The notes under the pieces: generated by a model
Databases searched by the model: none
The model's input: only the letters and a program-made list of their open reading frames with translations
What the model was told of the DNA's origin: nothing
Shown here: one piece after another, positions 2,882-31,157 of the stretch
Layout: every line of letters begins with the position of its first letter
How positions within the stretch are numbered: the first letter of the stretch is position 1
Assembly (NCBI GenBank): GCA_004764695.1
Contig: SMSO01000037.1
Span: 852,247 to 916,246 of the forward strand
DNA: 64,000 nt
DNA from: Schizochytrium sp. TIO01
Taxonomy: Eukaryota; Sar; Bigyra; Thraustochytrida; Thraustochytriidae
Direction: 5' to 3'
Made by a program: the position numbers and the translations under genes

Positions 2882-3691
2882 ATGGGCCAAGAGCAATCAA
2901 GCACTCGCCGGCACCAGTATCCGTCAGGAAATGTGTATGAAGGCGGTTGGAAACGCAATAAGCGCAACGGAAAGGGTACCATGTGGTGGACCGATGGAAC
3001 AGAATACTCTGGAGATTGGGTGAACAACAAGCAGGAAGGCTATGGCACAATGAAGTTCAGGAATGGCAATGTCTACGAGGGCAACTTTTCTGACAACAAC
3101 TTTAGCGGCAACGGAACTCTCCGCACGAGCAACTCAGAAGTTATTTCCGGAAACTGGCATTTCCTAGGCCGCAATAACTCGAACTTGACTGGGCAACATA
3201 GCGTCATTGGCACATACCGCCTCAATGTTACTATCACAGATGTCTCCACGAACCAGACGCATGGATATAGCGGGGAGGCATCTGTACATTTGGATACAGG
3301 CCTTGTCGTGTTGCCCAATATGCCAAAGCCAGATATTGCACTTCTGCCGTACGCAGTAGCAGTCGCTGCTTATGAGGACGCAAGTCACCCCACTGCAACT
3401 GCCGAGCCATACTCGCAAGCTGATTCTTTCAACATGAATGCTCCGCAAGCTGCACCAGGCTACCCCACTGCTGCAGGCACTGGATATGCACAACCGCCGT
3501 CTTCCGGTCCGGGCAACGCTACCTTAGGTCAGCCTCTCCTTGCAGGTGAATCATATCAGGGAGCAGTCACAGCACCAGTTGCCGGATCGAACTCTGTTGC
3601 TTACGGTGTCAGTGAACCTGGCATGAACTTGAGCCGCCCAACGAACCAGCGAGGCAAGGTTGAGGTTTTCAATCCTCGCAATTATTTCTAA
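2882..3691 (+). CDS. MORN-repeat protein with disordered tail and possible N-myristoylation site
   Basis: This encodes 269 residues. Three MORN repeats, each 23 residues, run in tandem at about 19-41 (YEGGWKRNKRNGKGT), 42-64 (YSGDWVNNKQEGYGT) and 65-87 (YEGNFSDNNFSGNGT), with a weak fourth start at about 88 (ISGNW). MORN repeats bind phospholipids or act as scaffolds, often at the plasma membrane or flagellum. Gly2 in MGQEQSS fits an N-myristoylation signal, which would also favour membrane attachment (inference). Residues 100-145 are Ser/Thr/Asn-rich and may form beta structure. From about 165 the chain is rich in Ala, Pro, Gly, Tyr and Gln and is probably disordered. The ATG at 2882 is the first in frame and preserves the first repeat. 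The specific role is unknown; membership of the MORN family is secure. Confidence 0.85.
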   Translation: MGQEQSSTRRHQYPSGNVYEGGWKRNKRNGKGTMWWTDGTEYSGDWVNNKQEGYGTMKFRNGNVYEGNFSDNNFSGNGTLRTSNSEVISGNWHFLGRNNSNLTGQHSVIGTYRLNVTITDVSTNQTHGYSGEASVHLDTGLVVLPNMPKPDIALLPYAVAVAAYEDASHPTATAEPYSQADSFNMNAPQAAPGYPTAAGTGYAQPPSSGPGNATLGQPLLAGESYQGAVTAPVAGSNSVAYGVSEPGMNLSRPTNQRGKVEVFNPRNYF

Positions 3692-29037: not shown

Positions 29038-29779
29038 ATCATTCATTCTCCTTTCTCACCAAGGAAAAGAAGCCTACTTGGAAACAAGAACATGCTACAC
29101 TCCAGAAACATTATACTCTATAGTACAGGACCTGCCTTCAAGTAGGAATAAGAATAACCCACTGTACGAACACAGGTCTCAGCACAGAATAAACAGAATG
29201 TTACGAGAAAGAGAGAGTGGCTGAGGCTGCCTACGCCAAACACTAGCCCAGCTCCACGCCCTCCTTCCTTAAGATTGAGCGTCGTCATGCCTACGAAGAC
29301 ATAGCCACTCTTAGCACTTCGAAGAAGAAGGCACCGGGGAATGGGATTTCATGCAGAGAGCGAAACTAACTCCACGGAAACCCTCATGGTGTTTACAGTC
29401 GGCGGGTTTGCCACAGCGGCATCCCCAGCTGAGGCGTCTTGCCCCTTGAGGCTTCCAAAACTGCCTGTCCAAGACGACTATCTCTGGCGCCTCCACGAGT
29501 GGCCCTGACGAGCGAGCGAGCTTTCGCAATAGACCGCTCTGTAAAGACTGCGCTGTTGGGACCAACCGCCGCTACTCACTCTCAGTGGCATCCGTAGGGA
29601 CCGCAGGGTGGCCATGCGCGTAACACCTGATACACGAGGAGCTGAGCAGCAGTCCATCAATCCTTCGAACCCAATCTCCTGACCTATAAGGTTTGCAAAA
29701 CCTGCGTTTCCCCAATCGCGGGATAGCTTTTAGCCCGCGACTCAAAGGCAGTTCTCAAACCATGTCCTTGGATGGATAC
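28399..29779. other. Intergenic region upstream of UBR4
   Basis: This is the presumed promoter side of UBR4, 1.4 kb long. 28580-29000 is noticeably GC-richer and open on both strands, but the open frames show no recognisable domain and one reads into a tetranucleotide repeat. It may be a 5' UTR or promoter island. 29040-29770 lies between that and the transposon fossil and may include its 3' flank; no coding motif could be confirmed there. Confidence 0.4.
29003..29036. repeat. (TCAA)n microsatellite
   Basis: About 8.5 perfect copies of TCAA lie upstream of UBR4, followed by degenerate TCGATCATTCATTC. It is a simple tandem repeat with no coding role visible. Confidence 0.95.
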
Positions 29780-29938
29780 TAGTAGGTGGCGCAAAAGCCT
29801 GGTTCTGGCGGCGTGGATGTCACAATCGCTTGCGTGTTTGCGTTTTTTGGGGGCACTTGAAAACCTTGGATGTTCCGAGCATGTCGTGGATGGTACTTGC
29901 AACATTCATTCACGGCATGGTTTTGAAGTGCAAGTCTC
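29780..29938 (-). pseudogene. TnpB/Fanzor-like nuclease remnant (C-terminal zinc ribbon and RuvC-III motif)
   Basis: Reading the minus strand, ETCTSKPCRE at 29938-29909 matches the TnpB/Fanzor zinc-ribbon entry (E-x-x-TSK-x-C-x-x-C). It is followed at about 29879-29850, in another frame, by LGTSKVFKCP, the LGGSKVF-x-CP strand of the ribbon. Back in the first frame, SDCDIHAARTRLLRHLL at 29830-29780 matches the closing DRD-x-N/H-x-ARN-x-LLR motif, which carries the last RuvC catalytic Asp. The three pieces are collinear and correctly ordered but broken by a stop at 29906 and local frame shifts. The N-terminal wedge, REC and first RuvC parts are missing: only about 290 bases separate this from the resolvase remnant. 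In IS607 elements tnpB follows tnpA on the same strand, as here. Fanzors are the eukaryotic RNA-guided homologues. The short, decayed match cannot separate TnpB from Fanzor. Confidence 0.72.
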
Positions 29939-30000
29939 TCGGCGAGTAACCAGTTTACATACACCATTGCCAAAGGGGGAAGCTCGGCTCTGCGGATGAG

Positions 30001-30145
30001 CCCTTGGCGAAAGCCATTGAATGACAGACACATCATTCGAGCTGCCTTGGTTTTGATCCACCTTGTTGTGCTCATCCCTTGGCGAAAGCCAACGAATGAC
30101 AGACACATCATTCGAGCTGCCTTGGTTTTGATCCACCTTGTTGTT
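30001..30145. repeat. 75-bp direct tandem duplication inside the transposon remnant
   Basis: CCCTTGGCGAAAGCCA starts at 30001 and again at 30076. The two units match almost completely through ATTCGAGCTGCCTTGG and GATCCACCTTGTTGT. The few differences (for example TTG/ACG after AAGCCA) show the duplication is not brand new. The period is exactly 75 bases, so it keeps reading frame on both strands. It sits between the resolvase and TnpB remnants. Confidence 0.93.
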
Positions 30146-30231
30146 AACTTGTTGAGGTTTCAAATTTAGGCAAGAGGATAACACGCTCGTTTTCTCAGAG
30201 CCACAGTGCAAGCTTGCGGTGAGTCTCAGTA

Positions 30232-30530
30232 GTCCAGCAGGACGCGCAAGCCAGGCCTTTTGACATTGGTCACTCTACCGATGTCTCTGTAGATGGTAGA
30301 GGCGTCTGGATAGGCACGCTGGAGGTAACCAATCTGGTATTTGAGATCCTCTTTTTGGAGACTAAGGCGTAGATGATGATGGTAAGGTCAGTGCTGTGGT
30401 TCTCGCGGCCGCCGGAACACACCGTAGTAGCTATTGGTGCGCTCAACGTCGTCACTTGCGTATATGCGATTGTCTTCGAAGAAGCTCCCGAAGGAGGGGC
30501 ACTTGCTGAGACGCCAAACTTCTGGTTGAA
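30232..30530 (-). pseudogene. IS607-family serine resolvase (TnpA) remnant
   Basis: The minus strand shows the pieces of an IS607 TnpA in the right order. KFGVSAS near 30521-30501 followed by SSKTIAYTQ resembles the MerR-like helix-turn-helix start (FGVS.sTLR.W...GKI...). TIIIYALVSKK at about 30383-30350 matches the catalytic strand IIYARVSSKKQ, with the nucleophile Ser retained and the usual Arg replaced by Leu. In a second frame LQKEDLKYQIGYLQRAYPDA and then IYRDIGRVTNVKRPGLRVLL (about 30360-30240) match the KQK.DL..QI.YL...YP and DI.SG.N.KR.GL..LL segments. At least one frame shift and several substitutions separate them, and nothing recognisable of the C-terminal half remains. IS607 elements occur in bacteria, archaea, giant viruses and some protists. 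The AT-rich flank at 30530-30700 contains imperfect TTTGA-rich repeats. Confidence 0.78.
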
Positions 30531-31157
30531 GTAGTTTGATAATTTGATTTGATTTGAAGGTTTGAAATCATTTGAAAACTTGAATTGAATGTATGAAGTA
30601 GTTTGATAGTTTGCATTGAATGTATGAAATAAATTGAATTGAAGGTATGAAATAATTCGATACACCAAAAAGCTTAAACTCTCTTTTTTATTCATTATTT
30701 TATTTTTATTTTTTACACTAAAAATTAAAATTAGAATAGTAACAAAGTCCAGAGTTAAAATTGAAGTTCAAGAGATTGCCTCTTTAATACTGAGTTCTTT
30801 TATTCTTTTACTATTTAATTAATAATAATAATAAAAGAATAAAAAAGAAGGTTATTAGGTATATTTTCTCAGAGATCTGTATGAGGGGATTACGAATCCT
30901 AGGGTATCCAGTAGGAATCTTTCATGCCTATACATAGCTAAACACATACATATATGCTGCCTTGTAAATGGTCTATCTCTAAATAGCCTCTTTCTTCAAA
31001 TTTCTGCCTGCTTTCTTTCGCAGCCTAGACTCGTTCAGATTCTCTATTGCTGGGCTGGGGTGAAGTTCCCCGCTAGGTTTTCGCGCGCCTGTCCTCTGTT
31101 TCGGTTTTACCCGTCTTCACGTGTCCGTCTGATTCCCATTGGAGTCCTGCATTCGCC
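30531..31157. other. AT-rich intergenic region
   Basis: This contains imperfect repeats built on TTTGATTTGA and TTGAATGTATGAA (about 30530-30660) and an (AAT)n tract near 30818-30835. 31020-31157 becomes GC-richer and is probably the promoter and 5' UTR of the gene starting at 31158. No coding segment was recognised. Confidence 0.5.

Follow-up and report, generated by a model that had tools for sequence, protein, structure and literature searches.

A decayed locus in a thraustochytrid genome, very probably a dead ghost copy descended from an IS607-type Fanzor2 transposon

We found that the window (the whole 64,000-nucleotide stretch of DNA analysed, on contig 36 of the 64 Mb eukaryotic host genome) contains, on its minus strand, what is left of an IS607-type Fanzor2 element. 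The initial annotation had reported a TnpB/Fanzor zinc-ribbon and RuvC-III remnant at 29780-29938. All three of its peptides occur on the minus strand, where they occupy more than one frame: TSKPCRE (29909-29929), LGTSKVFKCP (29850-29879) and SDCDIHAARTRLLRHLL (29780-29830). That interval covers the zinc-ribbon end only; the full remnant extends from approximately 30546 to 29684 (Table 1). At the left end of the window copy, the first ~175 bp are unrecognisable. An AT-rich minisatellite (31-bp and 23-bp units) lies at 30549-30655, in the place of a left end. Elsewhere in the window, two adjoining giant ORFs of 3957 and 2807 codons (8282-28518, minus strand) have UBR4 and UBR-box matches and probably belong to a single UBR4-like E3 ligase gene that has an intron or a frame change near 20.1 kb. 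Very long uninterrupted ORFs also occur in the host genome.

Table 1. Features of the remnant (window coordinates) and of tnpA in related copies (copy coordinates)
Feature	Position	Strand	Evidence
Whole remnant, very probably a non-autonomous (ghost) IS607-type Fanzor2 derivative	29684..30546	-	blastn blocks vs intact copies; divergence from consensus sequences
tnpA 5' part, reference positions 1313-1365	30494..30546	-	79% identity, E 3e-6 to 4e-8
Resolvase remnant, N-terminal part of IS607 TnpA catalytic domain (LQKEDLKYQIGYLQRAYPDASTIYRDIG...RPGLRVLLD)	30232..30493	-	tblastn 70.9 bits, blastn 69%
Deletion junction CTGGAC|TACTGAG, ~1.2 kb absent	30231..30232	-	20-copy alignment and junction pattern search
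Fanzor fragment THRKLALWL*ENERVILLPKFETS, 5' of zinc finger, one in-frame stop	30154..30231	-	88% amino-acid identity, 47.4 bits
75-bp tandem duplication (1.9 copies) within Fanzor remnant	30001..30144	-	Tandem Repeats Finder; self-matches of copy L037
Zinc ribbon and RuvC-III remnant (RETCTSKPCRE / LGTSKVFKCP / SDCDIHAARTRLLRHL), frame-shifted	29783..29959	-	peptides, blastn, tblastn
Right-end region, counterpart of intact elements' expected guide-RNA (reRNA/omegaRNA) scaffold	29684..29770	-	right-end alignment; blast 29710-29684 to reference 3301-3327
Putative scaffold stem P1, intact, GTCGCGGGCTAAAAGCTATCCCGCGAT	29715..29741	-	folding; pair counts over 41 right ends
tnpA with open +1 Fanzor frame	copies L017-L033, e.g. 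L017 1254-1949		reduced synonymous change

The TnpB/Fanzor identity of the remnant was borne out by collinear blastn and tblastn matches to intact Fanzor elements in the same genome. Twenty copies fetched from the genome matched the window at a single locus (29711-30564), in collinear blastn blocks. These blocks were 30493-30223 (TnpA; ~69% identity, E ~1e-25), 30230-30154 (the Fanzor region 5' of the zinc finger; 87%, E ~1e-20) and 29959-29711 (zinc ribbon to right end; 66%, E ~1e-12). In tblastn, the intact TnpA matched the window with 70.9 bits (E 4e-19) and the intact Fanzor with 47.4 and 33.1 bits. The association with IS607, the strand, the order and the decay all agree with what had been claimed: they match the intact tnpA-Fanzor elements, and the window copy has a stop and frame shifts. 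Pfam found no match in the broken ORFs of the window, whereas Pfam and NCBIfam models matched the intact relatives; the TnpB/Fanzor peptides missed by Pfam were nevertheless detected by comparison with the genome's own intact elements. A functional Fanzor has an ORF with RuvC-I, II and III. In the window copy RuvC-I is deleted and the rest is interrupted by the stop and frame shifts; the copy is incapable of making the nuclease and is inert.

Active relatives had been expected elsewhere in this genome or its viruses, and intact elements are indeed present in the same genome. The Pfam TNB (zinc-ribbon) model matched 36 places genome-wide, approximately 17 of them with similar scores near 55 bits, in open frames of up to 682 codons. 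The Pfam resolvase model matched 29 places, mostly paired with TNB places. Approximately 20 elements are young (at least 94% identical), and the parent element is ~2.2 kb long. Of the 20 fetched copies, nine combine an open TnpA (232 codons counted from the ATG) with an open Fanzor frame. In six others Fanzor is open and TnpA truncated, which makes 15 fetched copies with an open Fanzor gene. The viral part of the expectation fared less well: a single query of viral contigs with the intact Fanzor gave five pattern matches, none of which was confirmed, and no close relative.

The intact genes are an IS607-type serine recombinase (TnpA) and an adjoining Fanzor2. TnpA scored 144.9 bits with the NCBIfam model transpos_IS607 (NF033518; cut-off 110) and 72.5 bits with PF00239. 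Fanzor scored above the cut-offs with PF07282 (51.1 bits) and PF12323 (OrfB HTH; 37.7 bits), and slightly below the cut-off of 100 with the guided TnpB model (95.8 bits). Among solved proteins, its top match by sequence is mimivirus TnpB-like L79 (E 3e-19). The published Fanzor fingerprint includes a DPG motif and a glutamate six residues ahead of the zinc finger (PMC10711439). The intact protein has DPG at RuvC-I, the glutamate at that position, a D after the zinc finger, and RuvC-III, in the arrangement DPG-x145-E-x6-CxxC-x14-C-x4-C-x6-D. The sole mismatch to the strict published pattern is at the second knuckle, which is CxxxxC and not CxxC.

Four near-identical copies (L021, L023, L026 and L036) have a common ~320-bp insertion in the 5' part of tnpA (oriented position ~1030-1350), and their tnpA is truncated. 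Because these copies with a broken tnpA share the insertion, copies without full TnpA must also have spread, which suggests that this subfamily was mobilised in trans. The insertion contains (CCTAA)n telomere-like repeats. In the host genome, TTAGG repeats were seen at one contig end, and 18S rDNA copies, located with a short 18S pattern, are spread over many contigs, often near ends (C31:9028416, C36:46823 and 4993271, C35:2658612). Some are facing pairs within contigs and are possible chromosome-end joins. Together with the very long ORFs, these traits of the host genome would fit a thraustochytrid. CAG is frequent as the left flank of the young elements, whose right end is GAG; we suspect an AG crossover dinucleotide, in contrast to the GG reported for IS607.

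The full-length copies fall into several waves, since the young copies differ from their own consensus by 1.6-3.2% and the other full-length copies diverge by 6-27%. Between the old and young consensus sequences, Fanzor differs by 0.385 at third codon positions, 0.142 at first positions and 0.099 at second positions. From this excess at third positions we conclude that the master Fanzors were under purifying selection, which indicates that Fanzor stayed functional for a long time.

We found that the window copy also has many short relatives. A DNA search with the window sequence identified approximately 40 other short copies, roughly 70-80% identical and distributed genome-wide; the number is a lower bound, as it rests on this search (40 of 197 candidates scored) and on the junction pattern described below. 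The short copies differ from their own consensus by a median of 13.0% (38 copies), and those aligned to the window sequence do not have its 75-bp duplication. As in ghost elements, they are repeated copies without a Fanzor ORF that keep both ends and the structured right-end RNA region, although the window copy itself has no left end. The short copies are thus a non-autonomous "ghost" family of at least about 50 copies, and probably more. Some copies may have multiplied by segmental duplication, although the flanks observed around copies are different.

The right end has a structure common to both kinds of copy. Approximately 110 nt 3' of the Fanzor stop are shared by all young copies and end in CTAAGAG, and the short copies have a related stretch that mostly ends in CTAAGTG; in each case the sequences diverge beyond this point. 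The fold of this stretch has three parts: P1, which is a GC-rich stem, then a small hairpin, and a third stem. Pairs of P1 and the third stem are kept in 88% of cells over 41 right ends, compared to 36-50% in slid controls. Covariation was modest: 10 pairs had changed on both sides, as many as were reached by 4 of 500 shuffles (12/500 for the score), and related sequences can exceed shuffles. The omegaRNA or reRNA of TnpB and Fanzor systems occupies the corresponding position (PMC10432273, PMC10711439), and the right end of the intact elements is expected to be the guide-RNA scaffold. Many old copies still have a recognisable right-end structure, which might indicate that the short family is retained as a source of guide RNA, or that its right end serves another host purpose, and that it is not a parasite of TnpA. 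We consider this very improbable, because the copies are scattered and ~13% from their consensus, and they carry a selection signal only as inherited from the master. Since the short copies decay neutrally, the retained structure is no proof of continuing RNA production.

The short copies also share one deletion. In all 20 aligned short copies, the window copy included, the junction is identical and the same 1.2 kb is absent relative to the intact element; the missing sequence comprises the TnpA C-terminus, the Fanzor N-terminus and RuvC-I. A 22-base junction pattern, allowing up to three mismatches, had 59 matches genome-wide (the window copy among them) compared to none for the reversed control. 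About five of the 59 look like old undeleted copies, leaving ~54 places with the junction. The Fanzor remnant had been described as directly downstream of the resolvase remnant. The adjacency is real, and it stems from the ~1.2-kb deletion common to the short family rather than from decay of a complete tnpB on the spot. A rival reading is an IS607 tnpA-tnpB (Fanzor) copy of full length that decayed where it stood and lost its middle through an independent local deletion; this would fit the order, the strand and the decayed state of the copy. It would not account for the shared junction, nor for the distances of the window copy, which lies 11.7% from the short-copy consensus but 24.3% from that of the young intact elements, and we regard it as very improbable. 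Overlapping blast blocks had hinted at an 8-bp microhomology at the deletion, but the alignment gave it no support. Chance likeness of short peptides in intergenic DNA might be entertained because the peptides are short, lie in different frames and escape Pfam, but it is refuted by the collinear DNA matches to intact elements (115, 95 and 67 bits for the three main ones), compared to a top score of 32.8 bits (DNA) or 28.5 bits (tblastn) in 500 dinucleotide shuffles of the region, a control that had been proposed with the initial annotation.

Based on these results, the locus very likely belongs, as a dead copy, to a ghost family that arose from an IS607-type Fanzor2 transposon. That transposon encodes the TnpA serine recombinase and the Fanzor2 nuclease, and its structured right end is expected to provide the guide-RNA scaffold. 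A single internal deletion would have removed the middle of this element and left both ends. The deleted product would then have multiplied, presumably mobilised in trans by the TnpA of intact elements, and ghosts possibly provide Fanzor with guide RNA of their own. The window copy would have decayed afterwards, through loss of its left end, the 75-bp duplication, frame shifts and right-end deletions. TnpA most likely excises and inserts elements through recombination at the element ends. Fanzor with the right-end RNA would cut unoccupied sites and favour retention of the element, as has been shown for a bacterial TnpB (PMC11870625). Ghosts with intact ends could exploit both activities. We infer trans-mobilisation, guide-RNA production, RNA-guided cleavage and homing from the copy families.

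The tnpA and Fanzor genes might overlap more than their order implies. In intact elements the Fanzor frame (+1) is open across the whole of tnpA (0 stops in 232 codons). Pooled over the young copies, there are 0 stops in 3638 codons, compared to 80 stops in the third frame. Random synonymous versions of tnpA had an open +1 frame in 0.1% of cases with host codon usage and 2.3% with tnpA's own usage, and synonymous change between the old and young consensus reaches 0.48 in Fanzor but only 0.26 in tnpA. These results suggest that the two genes may overlap fully. We do not take the overlap as established, because simulated evolution of tnpA leaves a probability of chance openness of 0.06 (old copies) and 0.17 (short copies). 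It is possible, though doubtful, both that Fanzor is translated in the +1 frame through all of tnpA, which would give it a long, probably disordered N-terminal extension, and that the ghosts donate guide RNA to it in trans.

IS607-type Fanzor2 elements are known in protists and giant viruses, for example ACa-1/-2 and ISvMimi_1 (Bao and Jurka 2013, PMC3627910; NAR 2023, PMC10711439). The elements described here resemble them in having a serine-recombinase TnpA, a Fanzor2 with DPG, relocated glutamate, C4 zinc finger and RuvC-III, and a structured right end. They differ in their second zinc knuckle, in the Fanzor frame that is open across tnpA, in the presence, within a single genome, of ~20 young copies and a graded series of older ones, and in the large internally deleted family alongside. 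Ghosts were described for Spu-1 of Spizellomyces punctatus, with 134 ghosts that keep the omegaRNA and 19 full-length copies (Nature 2023, PMC10432273). There too, many copies without a Fanzor ORF keep the ends and the right-end guide-RNA region beside full-length copies. However, Spu-1 has terminal inverted repeats and a Fanzor1, whereas here the parent is of the IS607 Fanzor2 type and carries a TnpA of its own, and part of both genes survives in the ghosts. A literature search with little coverage of subscription papers found no description of an IS607 Fanzor2 ghost family or a thraustochytrid Fanzor. Fanzor2/IS607 and ghost elements are thus of a known kind, and the possible novelty is the Fanzor frame open through all of tnpA, for which our results are suggestive only.

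With approximately 20 young IS607-Fanzor2 elements, older full-length waves and ghosts together in one genome, the role of Fanzor in its host is directly testable. One can ask here whether Fanzor helps IS607 elements to persist, whether ghosts are subject to its action in trans, and how the nuclease changes from one burst to the next.
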